This document shows, piece by piece, positions 3,439 to 42,057 of a stretch of DNA of 47,450 nt. The number at the start of each line of letters is the position of its first letter. Positions within the stretch are counted from its first letter, which is position 1. A model generated the notes under the pieces. The model saw only the letters and a program-made list of their open reading frames with translations, had not been told where the DNA came from and did not search any database. Source of the stretch: Candidatus Coprocola pullicola (GTDB taxonomy: Bacteria; Bacillota; Clostridia; Lachnospirales; Anaerotignaceae); the NCBI GenBank assembly GCA_018715395.1, contig DVLQ01000143.1, forward strand, positions 1 to 47,450, written 5' to 3'. The position numbers and the translations under genes were made by a program.

Positions 3439-3439
3439 T

Positions 3440-4235
3440 CAGAACCATCGGCTTAGCCGGTGGTTTGCTTTGCCCCTAGAGGGGGCTGTTGCCAGCACGC
3501 TTTGAAACACTTTACTTCCCCAATTGCCGCCTTTGGCGGCTATTTTTATTATTACTTTCGTGCCGAAGGCTGCAGAGCAGCCTTTCACAACCGCCCGCTC
3601 TGCATGCGAGATGAAAGCTTAAGCAAAAAACATCGACCTTGTTGTAAAATAAGCCTAAAATTTTTACAGAAGAAAGGACGAGGCTTTTATGGCAAACAAT
3701 TTAGCACACAGGGTATGCAAGTATCATATCGTATTTACACCAAAGTATAGAAGAAAAATAATTTATTATGAGTTGAGAGCGAATATTCAAAAAATAATTA
3801 AGGATTTATGCAAATGGAAAAGTGTAGAAATGATTGAAGGTCATATGACGCCAGATGATATCCATATTCTGGTAGAGATTGCACCGAAAATGAGTGTAGC
3901 ACAATGGGATACTGAAAAGGAAAAAGTGCCATGATGATATGCAATGGTCATACAAATCTGAAGTATAAATTCGGAAATAGGAATTTCTGGACAACAGGAT
4001 ATTATGTAAATACGGTCGGGTGAAATACAGCAACAATTCAAAAATATATCAGAGAACAGCAAAAACAATATCAAATTGAAGACAAGCTGAATACAAAAGA
4101 GTATGAAGGTAGCAGAGAATTATACCACCAAGGCTTGAACAAAATGAAAGCCAGCGTCATTTAGGCACTGGCTCTTAATAAACCCTTATAGGGCTGGTGC
4201 AAACCACGTCTTTTAGGCGTGGTTCTGATTTACTT
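3440..4235 (+). mobile_element. IS200/IS605-type locus with decayed tnpA and end hairpins
   Basis: tnpA N-terminus MANNLAHRVCKYHIVFTPKYRRKIIYYELRANIQKIIKDLCKWKSVEMIEGHMTPDDIHILVEIAPKMSVAQ, then frame disruption; C-terminus NFWTTGYYVNTVG*NTATIQKYIREQQKQYQIEDKLNTKEYEGSRELYHQGL. End palindromes gaaccatcggcttagccggtggtt (about 3442) and aaccacgtcttttaggcgtggtt (about 4202). Confidence 0.75.
3689..4164 (+). pseudogene. tnpA: IS200/IS605 family transposase TnpA (frameshifted, in-frame stop)
   Basis: YHIVFTPKYRRK and HILVEIAPK motifs; reading frame lost after codon ~75 and resumes in another frame. Confidence 0.75.
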
Positions 4236-23415: not shown

Positions 23416-24027
23416 CTATTTTACTGTTGGCTTTTGCATTTCTTTTACTTTTCTATAAAATGTGGATGTACTAATACCAAACTCTGTACTTGCTTCACAA
23501 GCAGAAATCTCTTTTCTTTCCCATCTTTGAACAAATTCTTCAAATGTTTTTGGCATCTTTTTTTTTGGTCTTCCAAATTTCATCCCCTTTGCTTTTGCCG
23601 CCGCAATTCCCTCTGCTTGTCTTTTGTGTATATTTTCTCTCTCATTTTCTGCCACAAAAGAAAGTAACTGCAATACCAAATCAGAAATCAATGTTCCCAA
23701 TAAATCTTTGCTTTTGCTTGTATCCAGCAATGGCATATCCAAAACACGAACATCGACTTTTTTTTCTTTTGTTAAAAATTTCCATTGTGCGATAATTTCT
23801 TCATAATTTCTTCCCAATCTGTCAATGCTTTTTACAACAAGCAAATCTCCCTCTTTCAGTTTTCGAATCATTTTTTTATAAGCCGGTCTTTCAAAATCTT
23901 TTCCTGACTGCCAGTCTACAAATGTATTTTTCTGTTCTATCCCTTGTTCCTGCAATGCCGTTATTTGTCTTGTTTCATTTTGTTCTTTTGTAGAAACACG
24001 GATATATCCAAATATTTTCTGCGGCAT
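23416..24027 (-). CDS. Serine recombinase (resolvase/DNA invertase, Pin-like)
   Basis: IFGYIRVSTKEQNETRQITAL...LLVVKSIDRLGRNYEEI...QLLSFVAENERENIHKRQAEGIAAAKAKGMKFGRP + C-terminal HTH; SD before MPQ start. Confidence 0.93.
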   Translation of the reverse strand: MPQKIFGYIRVSTKEQNETRQITALQEQGIEQKNTFVDWQSGKDFERPAYKKMIRKLKEGDLLVVKSIDRLGRNYEEIIAQWKFLTKEKKVDVRVLDMPLLDTSKSKDLLGTLISDLVLQLLSFVAENERENIHKRQAEGIAAAKAKGMKFGRPKKKMPKTFEEFVQRWERKEISACEASTEFGISTSTFYRKVKEMQKPTVK

Positions 24028-24152
24028 TTTTTTCACCTCCAAAAATAGTGTAGCAAAACTCTTTTCATTGCTGTATTTTAAAAAAATGCATCATTCTTTT
24101 TTATTCAAAAAACTTCTGCTTTCTATATTTTTCCCCTTTTTTCGATTTCTTT

Positions 24153-24203: not shown

Positions 24204-24767
24204 TTATATTTTATTCCAATATCGCACATCTTCTTGTCTTAAATCTATATAACGAAAATTCTTTTTTTTCATAAAACCATGGGTATAAGGCTTTAATTCT
24301 CCATACAAATTATATCTTAATGTCACTTCCAGTAAAATATTTGCAGGTATCATTTTTCGTACTGTTTTTTCGATTTCCTCTTGCAAATGTTTTTTTATAA
24401 GACGTAGTTCAATATGTAAACAATATAAAGAATACTGCATTTGCACCGTCACATTTTCTTTTTCACAAAGTCCTTCCAACCAATCTAACAAATGAAAATA
24501 AGTATAGGGTTTATGATGATTCCATAAAAACAGTATTCTTTGTCTAAAGTCTTCTAAATTTTCTGTTTCTTCTCTTACAATGTTTAACAAATTTCCTCGT
24601 CTTTTCAATCCTCTTTCTGTTGCTGTTGCTATCCATTGGTCGTTTTCTAAGTTTTGTTTTGCCTCTCTTTCTTCCTGCAATATTTCACTTTCTACTTTTG
24701 CCAAAATCTGAAACTCTCTTGTTTCTTTCACAAAGGGCGGCAAATATTTTGAATATATTTCGCTCAT
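24204..24767 (-). CDS. XkdU-like tail protein
   Basis: 187 aa; follows the baseplate J gene with overlap; position and motifs (ATERGLKRRGNLLNI...DFRQRILFLWNHHKPYTYFHLLDWLEGL). Confidence 0.8.
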   Translation of the reverse strand: MSEIYSKYLPPFVKETREFQILAKVESEILQEEREAKQNLENDQWIATATERGLKRRGNLLNIVREETENLEDFRQRILFLWNHHKPYTYFHLLDWLEGLCEKENVTVQMQYSLYCLHIELRLIKKHLQEEIEKTVRKMIPANILLEVTLRYNLYGELKPYTHGFMKKKNFRYIDLRQEDVRYWNKI

Positions 24768-25834
24768 TTTGTCACCACACTTTCCAAAATTGGTATTTCA
24801 TTATATTCCAAAATATAATTTTGTGTATTACCATTAATTTTTGTATCTTGCACATCAATCACACCTTCTGCATCTAATGCCCTAGATTCCAAATAACTAA
24901 TGCGTACTGTTAAATATTGCATATCTGCCCATTGCTTTTTTAAATTAGAAAAATATTCTTCTATGGACGTCTTAATATCTTCTATCACTTTATGTTCATT
25001 TACATCTTCTTTTAATGTCAGATTCATTTCGATATTAAATTTTATTTCTTTGGCTCCTTCTACTGTCACTTGGTGTCCTATTGGCGCAATGCCATATCCC
25101 AGCCCTCTTTTTTCAGGATCTATCATTTGTTGTATTTTTTCAATTTCGCCTTCTATTGGAGTATTGTAATTACCATCTATAATGGTCAGCTTTACTGTGC
25201 CTCCTCCATTCCAAACAGGCGTGACTTTCACACCTCCTACTCCCTTTAATGCCATAACCTTTATTTTATAATCTTCTATATTTCCTCCAAAAGCATCTGT
25301 ATTAAAACTGTTATAATATCGCTTTCTAAGGCTGTCGTCATCTTCCTCGTCTTCTCCTTCTGTCAATAATTCTATCAGTTCTCCTTCTGCCAATCCTTCT
25401 AAATATGTAATCGGAATCAAACTTCCTAAATATTGATTCCCTGCTTCTCCGGCAGTTTCACACTCCAGTATATACTCTCCCTTTGTTTGTGTATTTTCTA
25501 CCACAATATAATTTAATTCCTCTAAATTAAAACGCATACCAATAGGCACATCAAATCCTTGTTTTTTATGATCCAAAAACCTTCCCAAAAATGTTGCTTT
25601 TGTGGCTTCTTTTCTAAAAACGCCTCTTTCCATACATCTTCTTGTCAAATCTTCTTCTGTAGCAGTATCTCCATAAGTGCGATTTTCCAACATTTCCAAA
25701 TCTGTATAAAATAATGCTGTTTCTGCCGCATTGGGCGCCATTGCGTCAAATATGATACTGCCTTGCCTTCTATCTCTTTTTTGGCTAACCTGTTCCAATT
25801 TTCTTTCCATTAATTTTTCATAGCTTTCATACAT
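24764..25834 (-). CDS. Baseplate J-like protein (XkdT)
   Basis: RKEATKATFLGRF...LRKRYYNSFNTDAFGGNIEDYKIKVMALKGVGGVKVTPVWNGGGTVKLTIIDG. Confidence 0.92.
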   Translation of the reverse strand: MYESYEKLMERKLEQVSQKRDRRQGSIIFDAMAPNAAETALFYTDLEMLENRTYGDTATEEDLTRRCMERGVFRKEATKATFLGRFLDHKKQGFDVPIGMRFNLEELNYIVVENTQTKGEYILECETAGEAGNQYLGSLIPITYLEGLAEGELIELLTEGEDEEDDDSLRKRYYNSFNTDAFGGNIEDYKIKVMALKGVGGVKVTPVWNGGGTVKLTIIDGNYNTPIEGEIEKIQQMIDPEKRGLGYGIAPIGHQVTVEGAKEIKFNIEMNLTLKEDVNEHKVIEDIKTSIEEYFSNLKKQWADMQYLTVRISYLESRALDAEGVIDVQDTKINGNTQNYILEYNEIPILESVVTK

Positions 25835-26134
25835 ACCCTATCCTCCCCATATTTTTATCATTCTGCTCAGTTAATATCATGTTGATAATTCTTTCTGAAA
25901 TATGGCAAAACTACTATTTACTGTTTTTTTCTGAAAACAAAAAATACAAACATACTTTTACAGCTTTTTTTCATGGCTTTTACAAATTTATTCGTCCATA
26001 AAAAATACAAAAAGTAATACATTCTTTGCATAACCCTTTATAAAAGACTTTTTATTTTCTATTATATTTTCAAATGTTGCAATTTGGTGTTTTTATTAAT
26101 GCAATACTTCTTTTTCTTTCAAAACATACTATTT

Positions 26135-26542
26135 TTAAATATCCACTTGTCTTTGTATATCCAATACCCCAAAAATTGTATGCACCCGAAACTTCACTTC
26201 CAAACTTTCCTTTTCTCCTCCAAACTCAAAATCCGTCACAGCCTTAATTCTATCATCTGCCAGTAATGCCTCTTCAATTCTTTTTTTAATTTCAGGTATC
26301 ACATAACTTTTTGCTCTGCCAAATAAATCAGATAACTCTATGCCATATTCCCAGTTATAAATTTCATACCGATATCTTTCTGTAAACAATATTTTAAACA
26401 CTGCTTGTTTCATTGCTTCCAATTCTTCCACAGTTCCGGAAACAATTTCTTTTTCCTGCTGCACCCGATAAGTCAAAGAAGGAATCCTCTGTATTATCAC
26501 ATTTTCTGCTAATATATTTTCTGTATCAGGAACCAGTTTCAT
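26135..26542 (-). CDS. DUF2634/XkdS gp25-like baseplate wedge protein
   Basis: MKQAVFKILFTERYRYEIYNWEYGIELSDLFG; order in Xkd cassette. Confidence 0.85.
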   Translation of the reverse strand: MKLVPDTENILAENVIIQRIPSLTYRVQQEKEIVSGTVEELEAMKQAVFKILFTERYRYEIYNWEYGIELSDLFGRAKSYVIPEIKKRIEEALLADDRIKAVTDFEFGGEKESLEVKFRVHTIFGVLDIQRQVDI

Positions 26543-26879
26543 TTTCTTCCTCCATTTCTTCTCCTACTCTGTCTAACACAACATACCGTTGTCCGCCTGT
26601 CATTTTCATCAATATCACCCTTTCTCCTTTTTGTAGTTCTTGCTGTGCTATGATTTCATAAGCTTGCCAAGGGTCATTACTTCCTTTTTCTCTCATCAAA
26701 AAACTCTCATAATGTCGTGTTACATTTCTGGATAATATCAAAAAATTTTCTGTCAATTCCAATTTTTGTTCCAGCATAATTTTTAAAGGCTCTGTTTTTG
26801 TCACAGTACCATAACAAATATCAGCCAAATTTTCTTGTTGTAATACATCATAAGCCAACAATTTTAATGCTTCCAACAT
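26526..26879 (-). CDS. DUF2577-like baseplate protein (XkdR)
   Basis: ICYGTVTKTEPLKIMLEQKLELTENFLILSRNVT...LQKGERVILMKMTGGQRYVVLDRV. Confidence 0.85.
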   Translation of the reverse strand: MLEALKLLAYDVLQQENLADICYGTVTKTEPLKIMLEQKLELTENFLILSRNVTRHYESFLMREKGSNDPWQAYEIIAQQELQKGERVILMKMTGGQRYVVLDRVGEEMEEENETGS

Positions 26880-26895
26880 ATTTTCTCACATCCTT

Positions 26896-27840
26896 TTATA
26901 TTTTTCCTTTGTGCATTTTTCTACTTCTTTGTCTTTGCTCCAATAATATTTGTGTCATATCATACAGCAACGTATCCATATCTATTTTTGTTTCTCCCAA
27001 AAAAACTGCATTTTTTTGAGTCATATCCTCTTTTGTATGATATGGTTCTTGTATCATATTTTTTTCTGCTTTTTGCAATTTATTTTGTTGTATCAGTTTT
27101 TTTTGTTTTTCTTGTTGCCAAATATTTTCAGTAACATCATATGTTTTCCACTGCTTTTGATTTTGCAAAAATATGTTTTTTTCTATATTTTCATTTTTAC
27201 TGTATTTTTGTCCTTGATATATTGTATAAAAAAAATCATATTTTTCTGTTTGCAATCTTTTTTGTATTTCCTTTTGCTTCAAAAAATCTCTTTTTTCTTG
27301 CTTTAATATATTTTCATTCCATTTCCAAAAAATTGAATCTCCTTTTTTTTCCAGATTTTCTTTTAAAATTATTTTTTGTCTCTCTCTTGTTATATTTTCC
27401 AACGCTTGCTTTTCTTTTGTAGTGTCATCTTTTAGATATTGTTTTTCATATAAATTACTGTTTTGTATTTCTTGTTTTGGTTTTATTTCATCTATAAAAA
27501 TCTCTTTTGTTTTTTTAATAAAATTTTCATTTTTTTCCGTCCATATTTTCTTGCTTTCTTTCTGCTTTTTATCTTTTTCTGTTGCAACAATCGTTTCTTG
27601 TTCTTTTTTATTCCTTTTTTCTAATAGAGAAAAATAACTTTCATCATAAAAATGTTGTATTGTTTTTGCTTTTGTTGTGTTTTCTTGCGGAATCAGTATC
27701 TTTTCTTTATCTTTTGGAATCCATGAAATTCCACTTTCTTGTTGTTGTGTTTCAAAAAATTTTTTCCAAAATAAATTCATTTTTTGTTTTGGAAAAAATG
27801 CTTTTTTATAAAAGAAAAGCAATGCTTTTTCTTTTTTCAC
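26896..27840 (-). CDS. K/E/Q-rich, predicted helical protein of unknown function in the tape-measure position
   Basis: 314-aa ORF, GTG start at 27840; extreme K/E/Q/N composition, no hydrophobic stretch, C-terminal DMDTLLYDMTQILLEQRQRSRKMHKG; immediately downstream of the chaperone frameshift module. Confidence 0.7.
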   Translation of the reverse strand: MKKEKALLFFYKKAFFPKQKMNLFWKKFFETQQQESGISWIPKDKEKILIPQENTTKAKTIQHFYDESYFSLLEKRNKKEQETIVATEKDKKQKESKKIWTEKNENFIKKTKEIFIDEIKPKQEIQNSNLYEKQYLKDDTTKEKQALENITRERQKIILKENLEKKGDSIFWKWNENILKQEKRDFLKQKEIQKRLQTEKYDFFYTIYQGQKYSKNENIEKNIFLQNQKQWKTYDVTENIWQQEKQKKLIQQNKLQKAEKNMIQEPYHTKEDMTQKNAVFLGETKIDMDTLLYDMTQILLEQRQRSRKMHKGKI

Positions 27841-27846
27841 AAAACA

Positions 27847-28002
27847 TCACCTTCTTTCTTGCAATTCCATTTCAATAACGCCTTCTATAAACATTCTTTC
27901 TGCTAAAGGTAAATTAACAAACACATTTGGTAATATATGAAAATGACGGAGAGCATATCCGGCATAATCTGCCTCTGCTTTGCCCTCCCTTATGGCTTTT
28001 TT
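27847..28002 (-). CDS. -1 frame extension (T-like) of the tail-assembly chaperone, reached by programmed frameshift
   Basis: Open -1 frame from A AAA AAG (28002-27996): AIREGKAEADYAGYALRHFHILPNVFVNLPLAERMFIEGVIEMELQERR*, with an HFHILPxxFxxLPLxERxFIxxxI motif resembling T-type extensions. Confidence 0.75.
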   Translation of the reverse strand, partial: KKAIREGKAEADYAGYALRHFHILPNVFVNLPLAERMFIEGVIEMELQERR

Positions 28003-28376
28003 ACTTCTTCTTTCAACTCCTCTTTTCTTTGTTGAAATTGATTTTGTTCCTGTACAGCCTGTAGCAATGTCATATATTCTCCCATAGTCAGCATTTCTTT
28101 TAAAAGTTCTTCACCATCATGACATTGATAGCTTTCTAAAAGTTTCTCATCTTCTAAATTTGGCGTTACAACAGAAGCTGCACATAGCCTTCCCCAATAT
28201 TTTTCTATTTCTTCATTTTGTATCTGTTTTATTTTTTGATGTTCTTTTTCTTTCAGAGCCTTTATTTTCCATAATAAAGGTTTGCCATCTTCTCCCAAAA
28301 ATCTTTTTGATACAACAATTTCTTTTTCTTTAGGTAATTTCTCTTCTCCACATAAAAATGCTTTCAATTCTTGCAT
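27990..28376 (-). CDS. Phage tail assembly chaperone, XkdN-like paralogue 2 (G-like)
   Basis: VVSKRFLGEDGKPLLWKIKALKEKEHQKI...AASVVTPNLEDEKLLESYQCHDGEELLKEMLTMGEYMTLLQAVQE aligns with the 30060-30416 product. Confidence 0.85.
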   Translation of the reverse strand: MQELKAFLCGEEKLPKEKEIVVSKRFLGEDGKPLLWKIKALKEKEHQKIKQIQNEEIEKYWGRLCAASVVTPNLEDEKLLESYQCHDGEELLKEMLTMGEYMTLLQAVQEQNQFQQRKEELKEEVKKP

Positions 28377-28407: not shown

Positions 28408-29382
28408 TCATTGTTCCATTCTTATCCATAAATCCACCCTATGACTTCCATTTTCAAATCGATGCATACACCTTTCAATCACAAACATTCCTTTTAGGCT
28501 AATTTCAGCTAATTCAGGGATTTCTACCATAATAGAATTACCTGCTCTCAAAATGGTGTCTCCTGCCATTTGTTTTAACACAAGTATTTTTTTTACACGA
28601 CACTTTTCTGCCAATAAAGTATCTGCTATGGCTTTCAAATCATGTTGTGCCAATCTATGGTCAACCCTTTGATAATATAAAAGCCTTCCCCATTTTTTCA
28701 CATCCTCTGCTTTTTCTGCGCCATAGGACAATCGCTCTGTTTCCAATCTTCCTGCTTGAAAAAGCTGAACGCCGTTGTAAGTATCTTCTGAAATATCCGT
28801 TGTATACAAAAAATCTTCTATGCTTCCATTGCATTGTAATATCACATCTGTTACCATATCTTTTTTTTCTTTTAATGTCAGTTTTCCACCTTCATCATAA
28901 AAAAAATATTCCTTTCCAATTTCTTTTTTGGTCAAATCCAATGCAGTCAATATCATGTCCAAAAGAGTTTGTCCTTCTTCAATTCTTTGTGGAATCTGCC
29001 ATATGCTGTCACAAATCTCCCCCGTTTCCAGTCCATAATCCCCTGCAATCATTTGTATCAATTCAGAGGCCTTTTTGTTGTAATACACATAAGTATCTTT
29101 GTTTTGTATCATATAAAAAAACTGGTCGTATGCTGTTACAGTAATGATTTGTTCTGATGTTCTGCTTTTTTTCATAATCCAGCCGGAAAACAATAGTTTC
29201 TCTCCTGCAAAAAATTGTATTTTGTTCCCTTCCACAAACTGTACCATATCATCTCTTATAATACGACAAACCAATTTTCCTGCACTGCTGTCAATGCTGT
29301 TTTCAATGTTAACTTCCCCCTCCAGCAAACTTGTCGCATCGTACACATTGTCTTTATTTTCTATCAAAAGCTTTATATGCAT
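28408..29382 (-). CDS. XkdQ/gpD-like baseplate hub protein
   Basis: GNKIQFFAGEKLLFSGWIMKKSRTSEQIITVTAYDQFFYMIQNKDTYVYYNKKASELIQMIAGDYGLETG. Confidence 0.9.
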   Translation of the reverse strand: MHIKLLIENKDNVYDATSLLEGEVNIENSIDSSAGKLVCRIIRDDMVQFVEGNKIQFFAGEKLLFSGWIMKKSRTSEQIITVTAYDQFFYMIQNKDTYVYYNKKASELIQMIAGDYGLETGEICDSIWQIPQRIEEGQTLLDMILTALDLTKKEIGKEYFFYDEGGKLTLKEKKDMVTDVILQCNGSIEDFLYTTDISEDTYNGVQLFQAGRLETERLSYGAEKAEDVKKWGRLLYYQRVDHRLAQHDLKAIADTLLAEKCRVKKILVLKQMAGDTILRAGNSIMVEIPELAEISLKGMFVIERCMHRFENGSHRVDLWIRMEQ

Positions 29383-29383
29383 A

Positions 29384-30049
29384 TCATTCCCCCAAATACA
29401 ATATTTGTCCTACCTGTATTTTATTTGGATTTGTAATACCATTTTTTTGTGCAATCTCTTTATATCTACTTCCGTCTTGAAGCATTGTTTTTGCAATTTT
29501 CCAAAGAGAATCTCCCTTTTTGACAGTATATGTATTGGGAATTTGTCTTCCTTCTCTTTTCACTCCAGTTTCTTCCAAAGTCATCTGATTTTGCTGTTGT
29601 TTTAGACAGTATGTAGTGGCAGTTATTTTTCTGTATTCTTTTAATTGTATTTCTACCCAAAAATCTCCTTGTTCTCCGCCTTTTTCCACCACAGTATATT
29701 CTTCAAATGAAACCTCCATGTTTCCGCTAAATAACTCTGTACCATCTGCCAATTTACGAAATACAATCAGACTGACAGGTTTTTTACTCATTTTATATTG
29801 CCGAAACTGATTTAAAAAAAAGATAGGTTTTTGAAACGCTCCTTCTGTTTGTACAAAGCTGTATTGCACTGCCGGCAAAAGTATTTTAAAAGAAATCCTT
29901 CTCAAGCCAATCTCTTTTAATATACTGCCTTCTCCAACATCAACCAGTTCTACTTTTTTACTTTCTCCCTTTACCTGTGTGATCAGTTCTGCCGGAGCTA
30001 CCGGAAGTAATATCTGTTCTTCATTTTGTTTCAAATAAAATCGATACAT
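29384..30049 (-). CDS. LysM-domain tail protein (XkdP)
   Basis: C-terminal LysM NTYTVKKGDSLWKIAKTMLQDGSRYKEIAQKNGITNPNKIQVGQILYL. Confidence 0.93.
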   Translation of the reverse strand: MYRFYLKQNEEQILLPVAPAELITQVKGESKKVELVDVGEGSILKEIGLRRISFKILLPAVQYSFVQTEGAFQKPIFFLNQFRQYKMSKKPVSLIVFRKLADGTELFSGNMEVSFEEYTVVEKGGEQGDFWVEIQLKEYRKITATTYCLKQQQNQMTLEETGVKREGRQIPNTYTVKKGDSLWKIAKTMLQDGSRYKEIAQKNGITNPNKIQVGQILYLGE

Positions 30050-30059
30050 ATCCTTCCTC

Positions 30060-30416
30060 CTAAATCATATTTACTTCTTCTACCGCTTCTTTTAACGCTT
30101 CATATTCCCCTGCAGTTAATAATTCTAATAATAATGCTTCTTTTCCCACCACTTTGTAGCTATTTTGTAATTCTATATTGTTTAAGTCAGGAAAAATAAC
30201 GCTTTCTGCCAATACCATTGTTTCATAATATTGTTCTGTATCTTTTCCTGCACTTCTCATTCTTCTGCATTTTTTTAATATTTCCTCATTTTCTTTTTGA
30301 CTCAAAGCTTTCATTTCCCAACAAATTTCATTTCCTTGTTCATTCAAAAATCTTTTAGAAATCACAATTTTTTTATTTTCTGCTTCTTTTCGATTTTCTT
30401 TATAAAATCCTTTCAT
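30060..30416 (-). CDS. Phage tail assembly chaperone, XkdN-like paralogue 1
   Basis: IVISKRFLNEQGNEICWEMKALSQKENEEILKK...VIFPDLNNIELQNSYKVVGKEALLLELLTAGEYEALKEAVEE; ATG at 30416 with SD ggaggt. Confidence 0.85.
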   Translation of the reverse strand: MKGFYKENRKEAENKKIVISKRFLNEQGNEICWEMKALSQKENEEILKKCRRMRSAGKDTEQYYETMVLAESVIFPDLNNIELQNSYKVVGKEALLLELLTAGEYEALKEAVEEVNMI

Positions 30417-30440
30417 AAAAATACCTCCAAATATTTTTCC

Positions 30441-31908
30441 GAATTCTGTTACACTAAAGCTCCTTATTGAAAGTACCATAAAATGACTAAAAATACTGCT
30501 TCTCCCAGAAAGGAGCTGTTACTATGCATAAATATAAAAATTACTTTTAAAAATTTTTCTATTTCTTGTTTTCATTGTTTTTGTTATTCCCTTTATGGTT
30601 ATAAGAAAGATAATTATGGGTATCAAAAATATATTGTCACCATCAGTTTACTTGAATGCCTAATAAAATAAAAACTTCTAGGTCATCCGAAATACCCTGT
30701 TTGGGATAAAAATACTTTTGCCTAACACAAATACGACCCTTCTATTCATTTTAAGTGTCATTCTAAAAAGTCCCATCATTCTATTAAAGTATCTATTATC
30801 AATATTCACTTTTGCAAAAAGAAATTTCCTGCGTTTACTAAAGCTTCTTTCAAAAGATTGTTTTGCACCAACTATTATTTTAGTTGTTCTTTCCCTTTAT
30901 TTTGAAACTTCCTTCTGTCTCAAACAGATACAAAGAGAATTGAATAACCATCTGTTTGTGTTTCTCACGTTTCCATTTATGGTTGCATTGTTCATTTTGC
31001 TCTTTTTTACAGAACTGTTTCTCATTTCCTTCCTCAAAAATCCGACCTGCTCTTTGATAATGACATGCTGACCAAACATATATTAAAATAAAAGGACAGC
31101 AGCATTATCTTTGGATATTGTTAGATTCTCAAACAAGAGTTGTAATTGTTTTTCGCTTCTCTATTGTAATACTGCCCTTACACTCTTTAAAAAGTCACAC
31201 AATATCACAAATTCACATATAGTCTTGATGCTTATCATATACCGCTTAGAAAGGCAATCTAGAATCAAAACATCATATTTATGATTCCTTTCGTAATAAT
31301 ATCAGTAATCATGTGATAGAATGTTTCCATAAAACTTTTAAAACTTGGCACAAAACAAAAAAGGATTTTATTATTTTGAATCTGCTTTGGATATGATTTC
31401 TAGAGCGTATCTGAAAAGTGAAAAGTGCACAAAAGTCTATTATATGTTATAGTAATACCAGATAGGAGATGATAGGCATGGCAAAAGGATAGGAACTCAG
31501 TGATTCAGAATGGGAACGTATCTCTGATTTTTTTCCAGTATCCAAAACAGGATATCCCAAGTCGCTATCCTCCTCACCAGCTACTAGATATGATAAGTTA
31601 GCCTCTTTCTTTTTTGCTTTTATTCCTATTGTTGCAATTGCCATTTTGTTAAAATGATGAATTCATAGGACTTTTCAGATACATCCTAATTTTCTGCCCT
31701 ATTTTCATTTTATCTATATCCTTTCTTTTTTGTCTCAACAAGCACCTGCTTCTGTTGCAGGTATTACATACTCTCAACAACAAGCAAAACACTGGTTTTT
31801 ATTTAAAAAAATTTTCAAGTATTAGCTTCTATTTGTATGCTCTTTTTTGAAATTACATTTTCAAAATTTTTTTCTGCATTTTTATTTTCATGTTAAATTA
31901 TCAGAATC
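30441..31908 (+). mobile_element. Decayed DDE-type IS, copy 1 (IS6/IS240-like ends and transposase remnants)
   Basis: Ends gaattctgttacactaaa.../...ttaaattatcagaatc (inverted TTCTGTTnAcTT type). Internal ISCFHCFCYSLYGYKKDNYGYQKYI zinc-ribbon-like and VIECFHKTFKTWHKTKKGF remnants; similar to 35062-36565 and 43070-43608. Confidence 0.7.
31403..31686 (+). mobile_element. IS5-family-derived MITE nested in IS copy 1
   Basis: Terminal inverted repeats GAGCGTATCTGAAAAGT / ACTTTTCAGATACATCC, flanked by TA; internal MAKG*ELSDSEWERISDFFPVSKTGYP resembles an IS5 transposase N-terminus; absent from the homologous site in copy 2. Confidence 0.8.
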
Positions 31909-32221: not shown

Positions 32222-32913
32222 GAAAAGCCCTCTCCCTTTTAGGACAAGGGCTTTTATCATTTTATACCGCATAAAAAACATCCAGTAAATCTGCATCATT
32301 AAATGTAAACGTCATAGTTTCATCTAATGCATCCTTTTCTATATCTAACTTTGTAATTGCCATACTATTGATATTCACACCCTTTAAAAGCACTGTCTGC
32401 TTTCCCGTTGCACTGGTAGGGTCTTCATTTGTAATCAAAAGTTCAAAATAAGTATCCACTCCGTTTTTCATATATTCCAACATAATCTGACGAAATAAAC
32501 TGCAAATATAATATACCTCCATTATCCCAGTACCATTTCAGCCATCTTTTTTATACTGTTTTCATATCAAAGCCCTCTCCCTTTTAGTACAAGGGCTTTT
32601 ATCATTTTTATACCGCATCAAAAACATCCAGTAAATCTGCATCATTAAATGTAAACGTCATAGTTTCATCTAATGCATCCTTTTCTATATCCAGCTTTGT
32701 AATTGCCATACTATTGATATTCACACCCTTTAAAAGCACTGTCTGCTTTCCTGTTGCACTGGTAGGGTCTTCATTTGTAATCAAAAGTTCAAAATAAGTA
32801 TCCACTCCGTTTTTCATATATTCCAGCATAATCTGACGAAATAAACTAGAAATATAATATACCTCCATTGTTCCAGTGCCATTCCATCCGCCTGCTTTAT
32901 GTTGTTTTGAAGT
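32222..32913 (-). repeat. Tandem partial duplication (unit ~346 bp) of the 3' part of the tail-tube gene plus downstream hairpin
   Basis: gccctctcccttttag.acaagggcttttatcatt...taccgcat.aaaaacatccagtaaatctgcatcatt occurs twice, offset ~346 bp. Confidence 0.9.
32262..32522 (-). pseudogene. Truncated duplicate of the tail tube protein (C-terminal 86 aa)
   Basis: MEVYYICSLFRQIMLEYMKNGVDTYFELLITNEDPTSATGKQTVLLKGVNINSMAITKLDIEKDALDETMTFTFNDADLLDVFYAV, almost identical to the C-terminus of the 32608-33063 product. Confidence 0.85.
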
Positions 32914-33063
32914 CAAACCCAGTATAGGAATTTCTGATTTTGTTTTTTCTACTTTCGCCTCCACATTTTTTGCCTGCATAATTTCATATCGATTGCCATC
33001 AATAATTGCAAAACAAGTTCCCAATGCGCCATTAATGGTATCCTTTGCTCTCAAATATGCCAT
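32608..33063 (-). CDS. Phage tail tube protein (XkdM-like)
   Basis: 151 aa; EIMQAKNVEAKVEKTKSEIPILGLTSKQHKAGGWNGTGTMEVYYISSLFRQIM. Confidence 0.92.
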   Translation of the reverse strand: MAYLRAKDTINGALGTCFAIIDGNRYEIMQAKNVEAKVEKTKSEIPILGLTSKQHKAGGWNGTGTMEVYYISSLFRQIMLEYMKNGVDTYFELLITNEDPTSATGKQTVLLKGVNINSMAITKLDIEKDALDETMTFTFNDADLLDVFDAV

Positions 33064-33078
33064 TTTTATCTCTCCTTA

Positions 33079-34386
33079 TCAAATTACTTCTACTTTCATA
33101 TAAAGCTTCTCCATTGCATCTGTTGGTCGTACTTTTTCATATACCACAACGTCTTGTTTTTCTACCCCTTGTAAGATAGTAATATCCTCTGGTATAAATC
33201 CTTCAATCGCTTCCATTGCTTGCAACTGTTCGTGGTATTGTATCAGTTCTGCTTTTAACAAATTTCTTCCATTTGCATTATTACTTTGTTTTCCCAAATA
33301 ATATTGGCTAAATATTCTTGCCACATCATTTGCTATGGCGTCTAGTACACGAACCACTCTATTGCTTGAAAAATCGCTGTTTTTACTGCTTTCAAAAGAT
33401 GTAAATGTGTTAATATCCCTTAGTACACGAATATCTTCTCCATCTTCGTAGTATAAAAATTCTCCCTTTTGTATTCCTTCAATAAATCTAGATTTTTTAT
33501 ATTTTGCCTTTATAGTATATTCTCCGTCATATTTTTTGTTTGTAACACTTTCATTGACTTCTGCTCCTGCTTCTATTCCTGCTGTCCAATAAACTAACGC
33601 TGTCTTTTCTTCTTCTGTTTCATTTGTAACAGAGATAATTCCTTCAAAATCTGCTTTTGTATAATCAAAAAGTACTGTAACAAACTTAATGCCTTCTTCA
33701 TCTCTCAGCCTTTTTGTAAATGCTGTAAATAATCCCTTTGTGGTATTATCTTCTCCCGCATATGCCAATACATTAAAATTTTCTTTTTCCGCTTCTTCTA
33801 AAAAGTCAGAATAATCACTGCCTGTTACTTCCTTATTGGTTCCTCCTGTCAAGTTCACTCCTGCATTTGCTTCCAAAGACCCAGTTCCTTGAAATGTTAC
33901 ATATGTGTTTTCTGTTAAATCTTCTATTTTTTTGACAGTCTGCGTATCTTCTAATTTCAAATCTAAATATGTTTTGACATCAAAAGCTGTTTCATCATCA
34001 ATATTTTTAGAAATAATAATTCTAATATCATTTCCTCTTGTGCCTCCATATTTTGCTTCTATGCTGCATCCTCCTGCTGTTGCGGTTGCTTTTTGTCCGC
34101 TATTGCATCGATAGAGCAATGCTTTTTTGGCATATAAAAATAAATCTCTCAAAGGCTTCATTTTTTCATGAGTATATTCATACCCAAAAATACTTTTTGC
34201 CTCTGTCTGAAATGCTCCTGCTTCTACACATATCATACCCGAGCTTCCCCAGTCCAGTTCTACTGCCATACATACAGTACCTCTTTCACCCAATGTTCCC
34301 ATTGCTCTTGGCTGAGATACAAAATTGATATATGCACCAGGCAATATTTTGTTTTGTGCCACATACGTTCCTCCACCCAATGCCAT
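33079..34386 (-). CDS. Phage tail sheath protein (XkdK-like)
   Basis: 435 aa; LPGAYINFVSQPRAMGTLGERGTVCMAVELDWG...VRVLDAIANDVARIFSQYYLGKQSNNANGRNLLKAELIQYHEQLQ. Confidence 0.95.
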   Translation of the reverse strand: MALGGGTYVAQNKILPGAYINFVSQPRAMGTLGERGTVCMAVELDWGSSGMICVEAGAFQTEAKSIFGYEYTHEKMKPLRDLFLYAKKALLYRCNSGQKATATAGGCSIEAKYGGTRGNDIRIIISKNIDDETAFDVKTYLDLKLEDTQTVKKIEDLTENTYVTFQGTGSLEANAGVNLTGGTNKEVTGSDYSDFLEEAEKENFNVLAYAGEDNTTKGLFTAFTKRLRDEEGIKFVTVLFDYTKADFEGIISVTNETEEEKTALVYWTAGIEAGAEVNESVTNKKYDGEYTIKAKYKKSRFIEGIQKGEFLYYEDGEDIRVLRDINTFTSFESSKNSDFSSNRVVRVLDAIANDVARIFSQYYLGKQSNNANGRNLLKAELIQYHEQLQAMEAIEGFIPEDITILQGVEKQDVVVYEKVRPTDAMEKLYMKVEVI

Positions 34387-35061: not shown

Positions 35062-36565
35062 GATTCTGTTACGTTAAAATGATATAGACCACAGCCTCAA
35101 TAAAATGAACGAAAACATTATTTCTCCTAGAAAGGAGCTGTTTTATGTATAAACATAAAAATTACTTTTAAAGATTTTACTATTTCCTGTCCTCATTGTT
35201 TTTCTCATTTCCTTTATGGTGATAAAAAAGATAAATACGAACATCAACGTAAATGGTACTATTCGTTTACTTTAAAATCGAATAAAATTTTTTCATAAAG
35301 CCTATCCTAATGCCCCGTTTCCAACAGAAATACTTTCTCTTGCCACAAATACCACTCTTGTACTCCTTTCAAGCGTCATTCTAATTTGTTATAATCACCA
35401 TGCATTTATTTTACAACCCAATCGAATATAACCTTCTCTTAAAAGCTATCCAAAATGCCCCGTTTCCGGCAGAAATACTTCTCTTGCCACAAATACCACT
35501 CTTGTATTCCTTTTCAATATCATTCTAAAAAGTTCGGTCACTCTATTAAAGTGCCTATCATCAATATCAACTTTTGTAAAAAGAAGTTTCCTGCTTTTAC
35601 TAAGGCTTCTTTTCAAAGATTTCGTTTTGCATCCAACTATATACTCTTACGTTTTACTTTGAGGCTTACTGCTCTCTCAGACAGATACAAACATTATCGA
35701 ATAAGTATATGTCTGTTTGTATTTCTTACATTTCTATTTATCGTTGGATTCGTCATTTTCCTCCTTTTTTCAGAATCGTTTCCTTCTGCAAAAGGCAGAC
35801 TTGCACTCTAATCAATGACACGTTGGCGAAACTGATATGAAAATCAAATGACAGCAGTATTATCTTGGATATTACTGTATACTGAAACAAAGGTTGTGAT
35901 TGCTTTTCACTTGTCTAATGTAGGAAACAGCAACACCGCCCTTACACTCTTTAAAAAGTTATACAACATCACAAATGCAGTTGCTATTACCATTGTTACA
36001 GATTGATATTGTCAATATTAGTTGACATATTTTTCTCAAACATACCACTGACTATCCGCCAATTACAAAGTTTTATAATATTGTTTCCGTTTTATCATAG
36101 TCGGAAGCCCTCCATTGGCGGAACGGAATCTCGGTTATTCCAGTAACGGATGAAGTATTGGTCTTGATACTTATCGTATGCCGCTTATGCTTGTCTATCC
36201 CAAATCAAAACGTCATGTTTATGATTTCCTTTGGTGATGATGTCAGTAATAATACTATAAAATCTTTTCATAAAACTTTTAAAGCTTGGTACAAAACCAA
36301 AAAAGGATTTCATTGTTTTGAATCTGCTTTGGATATGATTTCTAATTTTTTGTTTTATTATCATTTTATCCATAGCCATTCTTATTTGTTCAGACAAGTG
36401 CCTGCTTCTGTTGCAGGTGTTACATATTCTCAACAACAAACAAAACACAAGTTTTATTTTAAAAAAATTTTTCAGCTGTTCGCTTTTATTTGTATGCTTT
36501 TATTATGATTGTATTTTTAAAAGTCTTTTCTGCATTTTTATTTTCATATCAAGTGAACAGAACCC
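35062..36565 (+). mobile_element. Decayed DDE-type IS, copy 2
   Basis: Ends gattctgttacgttaaaatgata... / ...catatcaagtgaacagaaccc; NNTIKSFHKTFKAWYKTKKGFHCFESALDMISNFLFYYHFIHSHSYLFRQVPASVAGVTYSQQQTKH transposase C-terminus. Confidence 0.8.
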
Positions 36566-36713: not shown

Positions 36714-37110
36714 TTATGTGATTGTCTTTCTTTTTAATGCAATTTCATTGTGGGTACTATAACAAACCATTTCTCCAACACTTTCAAACAAAAGAGGAAC
36801 TTTGCCAAATTTTTGTTGTACCTCTATCACACTTCCAGGCACAATGCTATCCTCTTTTGAAAACAATAATATGGCGTCATATATGATTTCTGCTGGCAAA
36901 ACACCTTTTTCCAGTGCTGTTTTAGGACTGATACACAGCCTGCATTGCAATTGTTCTTTTTCCTGCTCTTTGGTGATTATGGTTTCTCCCCAAGGCTGTA
37001 TTTGTTCTTCCCATTTCCATACACAACACTTATCCTTAAAAAATGTTTCTATATCCTTTCTAATTTTTTCTATAATAGCATCCCTTCTTTTTCCTACCCT
37101 CCCACCCCTA
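36714..37110 (-). CDS. Head-tail joining (XkdH-like position) protein; start codon unclear
   Basis: Frame open upstream of the listed ORF: RRDAIIEKIRKDIETFFKDKCCVWKWEEQIQPWGETIITKEQEKEQLQCRLCISPKTALEKGVLPAEIIYDAILLFSKEDSIVPGSVIEVQQKFG. Confidence 0.55.
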
Positions 37111-37220: not shown

Positions 37221-37535
37221 CTACACCTGCTCATATGTTACAGTAACATTTCCTTGACGCATACTTTTCAAAGAGCCCTGTTGTTGTGTTTGTGGATAAT
37301 TTTCTGTATCATATAGCAAAAACCCAATACTAACGCAAACCCCTTTTAATACTTCAGGCACATTTTCTATTGCGCAATATGCCTTGACCATATCAACGCT
37401 TCTCTCTGCTGCAAAATATAAAATCATATCCTTTTGATTTTCTTCTTGCTGTGTTTGCTCCGTCGGTACTGTTTGTTGTTGTGTTTTTCTCAACTCTTGC
37501 ATAACGTCGTATACTTCTTGCGCTGTTACAAACAA
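37221..37535 (-). CDS. Head-tail connector protein
   Basis: 104 aa; MFVTAQEVYDVMQELRK...VLKGVCVSIGFLLYDTENYP; between capsid and joining protein. Confidence 0.7.
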   Translation of the reverse strand: MFVTAQEVYDVMQELRKTQQQTVPTEQTQQEENQKDMILYFAAERSVDMVKAYCAIENVPEVLKGVCVSIGFLLYDTENYPQTQQQGSLKSMRQGNVTVTYEQV

Positions 37536-37550
37536 ACTTCTGCACCTGCC

Positions 37551-38471
37551 TTATGTATTATCTATGCTAACCCAAATTCCTTCCATAGCATTGTCAGGTA
37601 TCCAAATATCGTGATGCTTTCTATAATCAATTTTCCATGCATTTGCTGTTTGATTTGTCATAGGGTCAAATATTCTTGTCACATCTGTTTTAGATACTGC
37701 AATTGGTCCATGGCGTACTGCAATAATCCAGTTAATATTTTTTGCATCTTCTGTTGGCTTGTAACCGCCTTCTGTCTTTTCCTCTGTTACACCATCTAAA
37801 AATTCATATTTTGTTTTCAATCTTGCAGAAGGCACTCGTATAATAGGGCTGCCGTCAATTTTTTTCACTTGCAGAGTCACATCTCCTTGGGAAAAACAGC
37901 CGCTTTCCAATACATATTGACTTCCTTTTGCCATATCTAATAGGTTTGCTGTTTTTGCAGACATGGTGATTACAATTTCATTGTCATCTCCCACCACATC
38001 TCTAATGGTTGTCACTTCCTCCATCAGCTTTTCAAATATCGTTTCCTTTGCCGGTTGATAAAAAGATGTATGGCTTGCTGTTTGCGCCAGTTTTGCTATA
38101 GTACTGTATCGATAGGCGTCAATTTCAGGAATCACCTTTGTTCTTTGAAACTCTCCCATTACATTTCCTGCAACCATTGCAAAATTTGTTTCATCCACAT
38201 CTACAGCATCCAGATGAAATGTTCTTCCTCTATCTTGGGTCATCTGTTTTGTTTCATAGCTTACTGTCACATCTCCTTGTACAAATCCCGTATCTCTGTT
38301 ATAATTGCCTAATCCGCTTAATTTCATTTTGGGTATCTTTACTTCATTTCCGCCATTGTATTGCACTTGTCCGCTGTTTGCCTCCATCCAGCCGCTTGTG
38401 GCTCCTGCCACCAACTGACAATCCAATGCATCCATAAATATTTTTGCATATTCTATTGTGTTAATACTCAT
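37551..38471 (-). CDS. Major capsid protein
   Basis: 306 aa; GGNEVKIPKMKLSGLGNYNRDTGFVQGDVTVSYETKQMTQDRGRTFHLDAVDVDETNFAMVAGNVMGEFQRTKVIPEIDAYR. Confidence 0.9.
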   Translation of the reverse strand: MSINTIEYAKIFMDALDCQLVAGATSGWMEANSGQVQYNGGNEVKIPKMKLSGLGNYNRDTGFVQGDVTVSYETKQMTQDRGRTFHLDAVDVDETNFAMVAGNVMGEFQRTKVIPEIDAYRYSTIAKLAQTASHTSFYQPAKETIFEKLMEEVTTIRDVVGDDNEIVITMSAKTANLLDMAKGSQYVLESGCFSQGDVTLQVKKIDGSPIIRVPSARLKTKYEFLDGVTEEKTEGGYKPTEDAKNINWIIAVRHGPIAVSKTDVTRIFDPMTNQTANAWKIDYRKHHDIWIPDNAMEGIWVSIDNT

Positions 38472-38484
38472 CTCTTTTCCTCCC

Positions 38485-38907
38485 TTATCTTCTCATTAAC
38501 GCCTTTTTAAACTGTCTTTCTGTTTCGTTTCTTTTTTCTGTTCTTCTGTTGTAGGTATTGTGACCCGTTCCTTGTATCTTTTTGTTTTCTCCTTCAAAGA
38601 GATAAGGCACTTCTTTTTTTAATGCTTTGATATCCAATCCTGTCACAGTTGCATCGTCTTCTATGGTAATATCTTCCAGCTCTATCAGTGCTAATAGCGC
38701 TTTTGTATTTTTTCCTCCCGCTTCCTTCAAAGCTTGTTTTACAGCATACTCTTTTAATTTTTCTTTATACATTCTTTCCATTTGTTGTTTTTCTTCTTCC
38801 AGTTGTGTTATTTTTTGATTTTCCGGTTCTTCTTTGTAAATTTCTTCTAAAATCATATTGGCTTGTTCTTCTGTTATTCCCATTTCCAATAACATATTTT
38901 TGGTCAT
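38485..38907 (-). CDS. Scaffold protein (minor structural GP20-like)
   Basis: MTKNMLLEMGITEEQANMILEEIYKE... coiled coil; KNTKALLALIELEDITIEDD. Confidence 0.8.
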   Translation of the reverse strand: MTKNMLLEMGITEEQANMILEEIYKEEPENQKITQLEEEKQQMERMYKEKLKEYAVKQALKEAGGKNTKALLALIELEDITIEDDATVTGLDIKALKKEVPYLFEGENKKIQGTGHNTYNRRTEKRNETERQFKKALMRR

Positions 38908-40369
38908 ATTCCTTTTTTCCCTTCCTTTCTTCCTTCACTGCTTGTAATTCACTGTTTATATCTTGTACAAAAGGATGATGCGCCAACAACGTTTTTTCGC
39001 TTACAATGCCTTTTGACGCCGTAATCATATCCATAATCTCCATATCGTCTGTAATGCTTGTTACATTCAATTGAAAATCAACTTTTCTGTAATCGTATTC
39101 CGTTCCCTTTTTTCTGTTGTAATCCTCTATCAAAAACCAAAAGAAATTTTTCAACGCTCTTTTTATTTCAGGTATCATACTGTTTACTTTCAAATGAAAC
39201 ATAGCATATTGAAATTTTAATGACACACCACTAGGAGCATTCCCCAATTTTTCACTGTCCGTATCCACTCCCATACCAAAGTGAAAAATATCTTTTCTCA
39301 AAAATTTTAGCCACTGCAATCTACCCTCTATAGGCAAATTCACTTGTTTTGCCTCTACTTTTCCGGAAGAATCTGAAATATGTACCGCTCGGTTAATTTG
39401 CAGTTTTTTGGCAATGCTGTTTGCAGTTTCCCCTCCATATCCTGCTATCACCCAATAAAGTTCTACCAAATCCAATAAATTATTTGTACCTTCACTGCAT
39501 AATAAGTCATACGCATCTATCAAACCCTTTATTAGTTTCAAATCAGACAGTTCTTTATTATTGTTTCTTAGCGGAATAAAAGGCACTCTTCCCCAGCCGT
39601 GTTCTTCTTTTTCCATGTCTTCTTCCGTTGTGATTCTCCAATGACCGACTCTTTCTTGGTTTTCCCTTTCATAAGTGCCATCGCTTTTTTCTGTATAATA
39701 TGTCACATCTTCTTTTGTCCACCATTCCACTTTTCTAAGTATCTGTTCTTTTCCATCTTTTATGACTGTAAAATCATAGTATCGTATCACCTGTTCTATT
39801 TCTTTTTCATACACAGAGTCATAAAATACAATTATCTGTTCTGCCGGTACAATACAATACTGCAATTCCCCCTCTTTGTCATAATAAACATGAAGATATT
39901 CCACACCTTTATTCGATGCTCCCACAATCCATTCATACAATGTTCTGTTAAACACTTCATCTGCTAAATTCATCATATATTTTTCGTATTCTGTTATATC
40001 TTCTTCTGATTCTTTTCGAATCAATATACTAGGCTCTTTTCCTACCAAATAAGTAACCTTTTGTTCTACCAATATATGGTGAAAAGGACTGATCGTATGA
40101 TGATTGCTTCTGTTAGGATTTGAAAGTAATTTCACCCATTCTTCCTCTGTACCGTCTTCTTTTTGATGAGTTTCAGAAAAAGGTCTTACAGAAAAGTTTC
40201 TCTGCAATACATCGTGTTCACAACAATAATATCTTTCCCCTTCTAACATTTCTTTTTTTCTTTGGCTGTTAGCGTCTTCTGTTATTATTTCTTTTAATAT
40301 CTCGCTATCGTTTCGTTTTCTTTCTGCCTCCAGCTTTGCTTGTATTAGTTCCATTTCTGTAATATACAT
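38765..40369 (-). CDS. Portal protein (SPP1 gp6 family)
   Basis: 534 aa; SNPNRSNHHTISPFHHILVEQKVTYLVGKEPSI...KLGNAPSGVSLKFQYAMFHLKVNSMIPEIKRAL; 143-bp overlap with the scaffold ORF. Confidence 0.92.
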   Translation of the reverse strand: MYITEMELIQAKLEAERKRNDSEILKEIITEDANSQRKKEMLEGERYYCCEHDVLQRNFSVRPFSETHQKEDGTEEEWVKLLSNPNRSNHHTISPFHHILVEQKVTYLVGKEPSILIRKESEEDITEYEKYMMNLADEVFNRTLYEWIVGASNKGVEYLHVYYDKEGELQYCIVPAEQIIVFYDSVYEKEIEQVIRYYDFTVIKDGKEQILRKVEWWTKEDVTYYTEKSDGTYERENQERVGHWRITTEEDMEKEEHGWGRVPFIPLRNNNKELSDLKLIKGLIDAYDLLCSEGTNNLLDLVELYWVIAGYGGETANSIAKKLQINRAVHISDSSGKVEAKQVNLPIEGRLQWLKFLRKDIFHFGMGVDTDSEKLGNAPSGVSLKFQYAMFHLKVNSMIPEIKRALKNFFWFLIEDYNRKKGTEYDYRKVDFQLNVTSITDDMEIMDMITASKGIVSEKTLLAHHPFVQDINSELQAVKEERKGKKEYDQKYVIGNGNNRRTSQYDFRRNLQRRTGKSKNNTTGRRKTTNGKNV

Positions 40370-40399
40370 TTTTATCCACCCCCTTATCGTATTATATAG

Positions 40400-40795
40400 T
40401 AGTAATGTTTATAGCCTCTCTCCAAATTCTGTATACTATACTGTTTGAAGATACTGTGGATTGGTACCTCCCTTCTATCACTTGATGATTACAGAAAGGC
40501 TTCAGCCACAGTCTTTTTGTATAGTTGTGAATCAGTTAGATACCCCCTGACGGTTGATTTGCAACGAGGCTGCAAGCCCAAAGAGTCTTGTGTTTTCAAA
40601 CAGTATCTAAGGAGTTTTCTTGTGATTTACGTTGGAATTGATGTCGCTAAAAATAATCCTGTCTGCTTTATTACAAACTCATAAAGGCAAGTCCTTTTTC
40701 AGACCTTCACAATCCAGAACAACTATCATGGCTTTGAGTATCTTTTTTCTAATATGCAATCCCTTTTTGTTATAAATATTACTTTCTCTTTACTT
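40400..40795 (+). mobile_element. IS110-family relic: 5' non-coding leader plus ~35 codons of transposase
   Basis: MIYVGIDVAKNNPVCFITNS*RQVLFQTFTIQNNYHGFEYLF (DEDD N-terminus GIDVAK) preceded by ~200 nt of structured non-coding DNA; outer boundaries approximate. Confidence 0.7.
40438..40608 (+). ncRNA. Candidate IS110 bridge-RNA-like leader (sequence-level candidate only)
   Basis: 12-bp perfect complementarity ATACTGTTTGAA (40438-40449) with TTCAAACAGTAT (40595-40606); alternative AGATACTGT with ACAGTATCT; inner ACTGTGG/CCACAGT. Confidence 0.4.
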
Positions 40796-40812
40796 CATTA
40801 ATACTTCTCTTT

Positions 40813-42057
40813 TTATACCACCCTTACAATTCTCATATCTTGTTCTCTGGCATATCTGACTGCATCAATAGAATGATTTTGCTTATCAGGAAACTTTGCT
40901 TTCCAACTTCCATCATTTTCTTTTTCCAATTCATATTCTATAAATTCTTTTGCTGTTTTGGGACATCTTTCAGGGTCAATAATAATCTCCTCCAAACTTT
41001 GCAGCCATTTTATGCCATATGACACACTGTCAGGACCTTTTTTTGCCGGTATCATACGCAGTCCATATTCCTGCATTTCCGCAATGGATTTTGGTTCGGC
41101 ACTGTCTGCTACAATGACTCCATTTTTATTGTTTTCTTGTTTTATCATTTCATAAGCCTTTCTGTTGCTTAATCCTCTTTGTTGTATTTCAAAATAAATA
41201 TAAAGGCGTTTTCTTGTTTTGTCATAATGATTCACAGTATAATGAAGTGGATCAATGGCATATCCCCAGTCCAGTCCTCTTGCCACACAATCAAATGTTT
41301 GTATCTCCTCTTGTGTAATTTTTCTGAGTGTAATATTTTGAAATACAACTCCTTCCGTACCGGTCACCTCTCCCAAATACTCATGCCGATACACTTCCGG
41401 CTGTGTCTTTTGAATATGCTCTGCCTCCAAAAAAAACGGTTCCCCCAGCCATTGCTTTGGCACATCTAAATATGTGCTATGGTGAATATATTTATCTTCT
41501 CTTTGTTGTATACATTCTTTGTTGACCCAGTTATTTTGGTTTTTAGGAGGATTATATGTATAAAACACACAAAACCTTTTTCCGCCCCTCATCAAAGACT
41601 GATTTATACTTCTAATCTCTTTCATTCCCAAAAATTCATCTATTTCTTCATACCATATGTATTTTACATATCCCTTTTTACACTTAATAGATTTCATTTT
41701 TTTAGGATTATCTGCCCCTCGAAACAATATCTTTTGTTTTGTTGTTTTATATGTTATTTCCAAAGGAGCTATTTTTCTTTCCCATTTTTCTTCCACTCCC
41801 AACATACAGATAGCCCACCATATTTGTTCAAATACACTATCTCTTAAATACATTCCTACTTTTCTAAGGACAACAGCATTTGCAGTTTCATCCGCCATCA
41901 TACCCAAAACAATTTCCAATGACACAAATGAGGATTTTGTACTGCCTCTTCCCCCTTTTAGCCAGTAATGTGTATGTTTTCCATAACAAATATCATTGTG
42001 TATCTCATAAAACTTGTTTCCTATCAATTGAGAAAGAGGAACATATTCTTCACCCAT
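40813..42057 (-). CDS. Terminase large subunit (PBSX family)
   Basis: HYWLKGGRGSTKSSFVSLEIVLGMM; YIWYEEIDEF; VARGLDWGYAIDP; ADSAEPKSIAEM. Confidence 0.96.
   Translation of the reverse strand: MGEEYVPLSQLIGNKFYEIHNDICYGKHTHYWLKGGRGSTKSSFVSLEIVLGMMADETANAVVLRKVGMYLRDSVFEQIWWAICMLGVEEKWERKIAPLEITYKTTKQKILFRGADNPKKMKSIKCKKGYVKYIWYEEIDEFLGMKEIRSINQSLMRGGKRFCVFYTYNPPKNQNNWVNKECIQQREDKYIHHSTYLDVPKQWLGEPFFLEAEHIQKTQPEVYRHEYLGEVTGTEGVVFQNITLRKITQEEIQTFDCVARGLDWGYAIDPLHYTVNHYDKTRKRLYIYFEIQQRGLSNRKAYEMIKQENNKNGVIVADSAEPKSIAEMQEYGLRMIPAKKGPDSVSYGIKWLQSLEEIIIDPERCPKTAKEFIEYELEKENDGSWKAKFPDKQNHSIDAVRYAREQDMRIVRVV

Follow-up and report, generated by a model that had tools for sequence, protein, structure and literature searches.

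A predicted -1 frameshift with a downstream stem-loop in an XkdN-like tail assembly chaperone gene from Candidatus Coprocola pullicola

Introduction

A conserved frameshift in phage tail genes is known from lambda gpG/gpGT (Xu, Hendrix and Duda 2004, as cited in PMC5009743). There, a small chaperone gene lies upstream of the tape measure gene, and ribosomes that shift by -1 close to the end of the G-like frame add a T-like C-terminal extension, so that one gene gives two products. The contractile-tailed relatives PBSX, skin and the EJ-1/phiC2-type phages encode chaperones of another family, XkdN/YqbN (PF08890, PHROG 389), of which one structure has been solved (YqbN, 3KLU). A frameshift on A AAA AAG followed by a stem-loop is further known from E. 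coli dnaX, where it serves the making of polymerase subunits. On the side of domesticated elements, gene transfer clusters such as RcGTA (PMC7296036), FpGTA of Faecalibacterium (PMC12946183) and GTA-like PBSX are chromosomal sets of head and tail genes that appear to be vertically inherited; RcGTA is siphovirus-like and has a short tape measure (PMC7296036), and FpGTA was judged podovirus-like by its authors (PMC12946183).

Here, we analysed a contig of Candidatus Coprocola pullicola (DVLQ01000143.1; 47,450 nt, hereafter the window), which carries a cluster of phage-like head and contractile tail genes on its minus strand. The second of two XkdN-like chaperone genes in this cluster, TAC2, shares the above traits with lambda gpG/gpGT, the two products and the tape measure being predicted in our case. 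Compared with the lambda system, membership in the Pfam TAC_5 family and a heptamer of the form A AAA AAG or A AAA AAC are particular to TAC2, and a clear downstream stem-loop and two chaperone genes, only one of which would shift, are particular to the window element. Unlike the window, XkdN-type phages have one XkdN gene upstream of a tape measure (TMP) of normal size, and in EJ-1 the extension is fused in frame. In the open literature, our search of which did not take in the 2004 survey of Xu et al., we found no report of a frameshift in XkdN, and we claim no priority.

Results

The zero frame of TAC2 (27990..28376, minus strand) encodes a 128-aa XkdN-like protein that matches Phage_TAC_5 (PF08890; E=1.7e-26) and PHROG 389. 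Read from 28376 to 27990, this ORF ends with GAA GAA GTA AAA AAG CCA TAA, and the heptamer AAAAAAG at 28002-27996 stands in the X_XXY_YYZ register relative to the zero frame, one codon 5' of the TAA. From there the -1 frame (27847..27996, minus strand) stays open for 49 codons (27996-27850) until a TGA at 27849-27847 and encodes AIREGKAEADYAGYALRHFHILPNVFVNLPLAERMFIEGVIEMELQERR; taken alone, this T-like extension matches PHROG 33439 (E = 6e-11). Joined to the zero frame, it makes a predicted fusion of 176 aa. The first-pass annotation of this DNA had pointed to an A AAA AAG heptamer in the zero frame at this place, followed by a 49-codon -1 frame, and both came out again when re-derived from the sequence. 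In the 21 minus-strand CDSs of the window, 6,800 codon positions hold 10 in-frame A6G or A6C heptamers; behind nine of them the -1 frame is shut within 16 codons, each time before the zero-frame stop, and only the TAC2 heptamer has a -1 frame that passes it. As the other nine close early, the pairing of heptamer and open frame in TAC2 is more than one would expect by chance. Besides, TAC2 is a gene of a known TAC family, sits in the tail module and lies directly upstream of the proposed TMP gene.

The initial set of relatives comprised eight homologous loci from viral contigs and genomes, among them the complete genome of Clostridium sp. ASF356, to which a search of the genus added one more (L062). 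A AAA AAG followed by the extension was kept in all nine of these loci, and the heptamer in 10 of the 10 genus loci examined. More widely, an XkdN homologue was present in 45 of the 58 genomes of the host family that were searched. Chaperone and extension were detected together in 39 cases from the host family and from phages (37 non-duplicates and two duplicates). In 39 of 39, the extension was read in the -1 frame and an A6G or A6C heptamer in the proper register preceded it, which answers the call of the first-pass annotation for a check on conservation in homologous prophages. A AAA AAC is the common form of the heptamer in the family, and A AAA AAG is that of the window's genus and of one other genome (L060). 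The heptamer and the -1 frame recur across many genera, in isolates and MAGs as well as in viral contigs and named phages: phiC2, Osiris, MismyG, Lj771, phi jlb1 and phiOH2 all have A AAA AAC with an open -1 frame, and in EJ-1, phiC2, Osiris, MismyG and phiOH2 a TMP gene lies downstream of the same chaperone.

In five loci (L004-L008), the -1 frame is blocked by a TGA located three codons before the shift site, and no ATG, GTG or TTG stood in frame among the first 20 extension codons of the six genus members checked; thus, ordinary initiation cannot make the extension. A Ka/Ks comparison of the -1 frame, likewise suggested beforehand, gave a median omega (dN/dS) of 0.34 between pairs, with third codon positions varying most, a pattern in these alignments that marks the extension as under purifying selection. 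In phage EJ-1 (L012, 3309-3905), the chaperone and the T-like extension are encoded in a single frame. This naturally occurring constitutive fusion offers a possible control, and, judging from this gene, a fixed in-frame fusion can also work.

Downstream of the heptamer, the window can form a stem-loop (minimum free energy -19.2 kcal/mol, z = -2.8), whose 5' arm GGAGGGCA (27981..27988, minus strand) begins 7 nt 3' of the heptamer and whose 3' arm TGCTCTCC (27948..27955, minus strand) follows after a 25-nt loop that contains a small hairpin of its own. The best-helix score, averaged over 52 sites, was 21.6, as against 11.7 (sd 0.47, maximum 13.1) in 300 synonymous randomisations, in which codons were re-drawn from local usage. 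Given 31 sequences aligned without gaps, RNAalifold predicted 10 pairs, six of them with compensatory changes, at -15.25 kcal/mol. These sequences come from short-tape elements as classed by gene order, with one exception, L078, which was included though it lacks a short ORF in the gap between XkdQ and DUF2577. Run on all 43 sequences, normal phages included, the same program returned no common structure. A named helix of 12 pairs, scored over these 43 sequences, had 75% of its cells paired, compared with 44-57% in slid controls, and its covariation score exceeded that of all 500 shuffles, which leave the relatedness of the sequences in place. At codon level, the choice among synonyms is extremely constrained: out of 37 loci, 36 encode the Glu of the 5' arm with GAG (background 265/793) and 36 encode the Leu of the 3' arm with CTC (background 15/433), counts taken over related sequences that are not independent, so that P values derived from them are overstated. 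The stem is missing or weak in several normal phages of the family (L016, L065-L069, L071, L072, L079, L081 and L087). An Rfam search of positions 23000-44600 of the window gave no match. Taken from these alignments, the stem-loop is a strong yet not universal part of the signal.

The first-pass annotation had named an upstream purine-rich motif as a Shine-Dalgarno-type stimulator. GAGGAG is indeed present 14 nt upstream in the window; no other member of the genus has it, and we have dropped it as the stimulator for want of conservation in relatives. Because of this absence, the downstream hairpin is the likelier candidate, and probably the stimulator. The accompanying label "dnaX-type" held in so far as A AAA AAG is followed by a stem-loop, and failed in that the TAC2 site has no conserved upstream Shine-Dalgarno sequence and a genus relative has tRNA-Lys(CUU). 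This relative, ASF356, carries both tRNA-Lys(UUU) and tRNA-Lys(CUU), the latter being a tRNA for AAG that is missing from E. coli. In E. coli, the strong slipperiness of A AAA AAG has been attributed to the single tRNA-Lys of this species (PMC5009743). To judge from the tRNA genes, the heptamer by itself may therefore slip less in ASF356, and the hairpin may matter more here.

TAC2 is one of two XkdN genes in the window element, and the frameshift signal is confined to it: TAC1 (30060..30479; TAC_5, E=2e-26, supported by relatives) has neither slippery site nor extension. All on the minus strand, the other genes of the cluster include large terminase, portal, scaffold and major capsid (37551..42057; by Terminase_3 and Phage_scaffold matches, with capsid and portal named from their position and from homologues at the same place in relatives), tail sheath and tail tube (DUF2001) (32608..34386), then TAC1, an XkdP-like LysM tail protein (29384..30049), an XkdQ-like (YQBQ) tail protein (28408..29382; E=2.2e-88), TAC2, a K/Q/E-rich protein of 314 aa directly 3' of it (26896..27840), XkdR-like DUF2577 (26526..26879) and the baseplate genes XkdS, XkdT (Baseplate_J) and XkdU (24204..26542). 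In L062, the closest relative, the stretch between XkdQ and TAC2 (about 2850-3900 in element orientation) holds coding-like tandem repeats of ~290 nt (VDKNGAMTKAFAWW...).

Phages, and some of the family's prophages, have the canonical order, in which sheath and tube are followed by XkdN with its extension, a TMP of 575-760 aa, LysM, XkdQ and DUF2577. The window and its relatives have what we call type A, which runs sheath, tube, TAC1, LysM, XkdQ, frameshifted TAC2, a short ORF of 195-430 aa and DUF2577. Type B is the same without TAC1, and type C has a single frameshifted chaperone at the canonical place plus a short ORF between XkdQ and DUF2577. Among 196 sampled genomes of the order, chaperone pairs ~2 kb apart were confined to the family of the host. 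The short ORF in the XkdQ-DUF2577 gap encodes 195-445 aa, and it and the normal TMP are mutually exclusive in the loci examined; the window element has no TMP gene of normal length and no TMP candidate besides the short ORF. In profile comparisons with the C-termini of normal TMPs, the C-termini of type C short ORFs matched with 96% probability (P 1.7e-9) and those of type A more weakly (72%); the profile of the window's genus reached 12%, and the C-terminus of the window protein itself scored no better than E = 0.26 with the TMP profile. In Pfam and PHROG, no family of known function came up for the short ORFs, and the 314-aa protein had no match there. Position, mutual exclusion and the relatives' C-termini together make it quite probable that the short K/Q-rich ORF downstream of TAC2 is a tape measure that has shrunk and changed its place. 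With 0.15 nm per residue, such ORFs would predict tails of about 32-67 nm.

In a midpoint-rooted tree of seven tail proteins, considered apart from the host tree, types A, B and C group by host genus, and the prophages of a further class, type D, from the same genera branch elsewhere. In five genera the element lies near the RNase R gene (rnr), on the same strand. In the window's genus it adjoins nagZ, ttcA, a tyrosine recombinase gene (xerC) and a Nudix gene; other genera showed no such ttcA neighbourhood and have the element at a different site. Grouped by host genus and near rnr in five genera, the elements look vertically inherited. For types A and B, genus clustering in this tail-protein tree and the rnr location point to inheritance at a fixed chromosomal place, as is typical of GTAs. 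The window element has head and packaging genes, and no lysis or replication genes were recognised between terminase and resolvase. Its ends are marked by a resolvase and an S24 repressor; the serine resolvase gene (23416-24042) follows directly after the tail genes, as it does in L004, L009 and L010.

Several features bear on the state of this copy. The segments 30478-31906 and 35100-36562 are direct copies (about 80% identical) of a decayed 1.45-kb element with an integrase-core remnant, and these two insertions adjoin TAC1 and the tail terminator gene. The stretch 32260-32559 is a 94% partial duplicate of the 3' part of the tail tube gene and the sequence downstream of it. At 37221-37223, an in-frame stop interrupts a gp36-like head-completion gene, whose counterparts in ASF356 and others are longer. 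Given this stop and the decayed IS insertions, the window's own copy of the element may be defective. Another head-completion ORF at about 36717-37090 (minus strand) is conserved in four genus members and has no ATG, GTG or TTG near its 5' end; from its sequence, it is likely to start with ATT or ATA.

Discussion

The first-pass annotation took TAC2 for a G-like chaperone that is extended by -1 frameshifting into a GT-like fusion, and this proposal is borne out by the conservation of heptamer, register and -1 frame, by purifying selection and by the stem-loop downstream. We consider it very probable, from these sequence features, that programmed -1 frameshifting on the A AAA AAG of TAC2 is real. 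Heptamer, register, conserved stem and the conserved, selected -1 frame can be read directly from the sequences; that ribosomes slip here, how often they do so and what the two proteins do is what we infer from them. Most ribosomes would stop at the TAA of TAC2 and release the 128-aa G-like chaperone. A minority, paused by the stem-loop 7 nt downstream, would slip by -1 on A AAA AAG and add 49 residues, yielding a GT-like chaperone of 176 aa. If lambda gpG/gpGT is a guide, the G part common to both should bind the tape measure and the T-like part should recruit the tail-tube protein, the ratio of the two forms thereby setting up tail assembly. The frameshift would then likely serve tail assembly, unlike that of dnaX.

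The extension could, in principle, be a small gene in its own right, with ribosomes re-initiating past the TAA or starting independently with GGAGGG as ribosome binding site. This sequence is a good Shine-Dalgarno match immediately 3' of the TAA, and the Osiris annotation lists part of the extension as the hypothetical protein gp024. However, the six genus members offer no in-frame start codon within the first 20 codons, for which we rejected an own start, and the next ATG past GGAGGG in the window is out of frame. Moreover, GGAGGG is conserved jointly with the complementary 3' arm, as expected for a stem, and EJ-1 carries both parts in one chain, so that a separate gene seems highly improbable. 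We give marginally less credit still to transcriptional slippage on the A run as what joins the frames. A-rich sites can slip at either level, both of which are treated in PMC5009743, yet the run counts six As in all compared loci but L070, which has seven. Six As are short for slippage by RNA polymerase. Slippage of this kind would also need no hairpin, and the conserved one at a spacing of 7 nt is typical of ribosomal -1 sites. That the two frames are merely an unprogrammed indel in a decayed or mis-sequenced single gene has next to no credence: the window element is decayed elsewhere, as seen from its IS remnants and the premature stop at 37221, but the recurrence of this register across many genera, from isolates and MAGs to viral contigs and named phages, already refutes this view.

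Another doubt concerns not the frameshift but what it accompanies, as the 314-aa protein might be no tape measure, with tail length set otherwise or no tail made at all. On its own, the window protein is a low-complexity sequence without significant similarity to TMPs. Against this stand the lack of any other TMP candidate in the element; the pattern that loci with a normal TMP (575-760 aa) lack the short ORF and vice versa; the match of type C C-termini to that of TMPs (P = 1.7e-9); and the place of TAC2-GT directly upstream of the short ORF, where canonical phages have the chaperone next to their TMP. We therefore regard the non-tape reading as unlikely, though clearly less so than any of the alternatives to frameshifting, and retain the short ORF as the probable tape measure.

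How do these elements relate to known domesticated clusters? With the GTAs, the window element shares an apparently vertical chromosomal cluster of head and tail genes and, with RcGTA, the short tape measure. It differs from them by its contractile tail genes and by the S24 repressor and resolvase at its ends; podovirus-like FpGTA is a different system. On gene content and location, we lean slightly towards viewing the element as GTA- or tailocin-like, related to PBSX, passed on vertically and endowed with a very short contractile tail.

The frameshift in TAC2 is of a known kind, familiar from phages; what is new is the arrangement, in which this trick is found inside an apparently inherited, domesticated cluster. 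The two XkdN genes, the absence of a conventional tape measure and the hairpin did not figure in the first-pass annotation. Besides the hairpin, our analysis adds that the frameshift signal extends across the XkdN family and is tied to an element with two chaperones and a short tape. The broader view, that the host family largely carries a domesticated vertical element with a miniature contractile tail, a shrunken and relocated tape of 195-445 residues, chaperones split into G and G+GT and a hairpin-stimulated frameshift, and that this constitutes an unrecognised GTA/tailocin family of which ASF356 is a cultured member, we hold to be evenly balanced. Two-chaperone, short-tape elements may represent an overlooked GTA- or tailocin-like system in gut Clostridia, ASF356 included. 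ASF356 belongs to the Altered Schaedler Flora and has been cultured, which makes the control of tail length and any DNA transfer by such elements testable.
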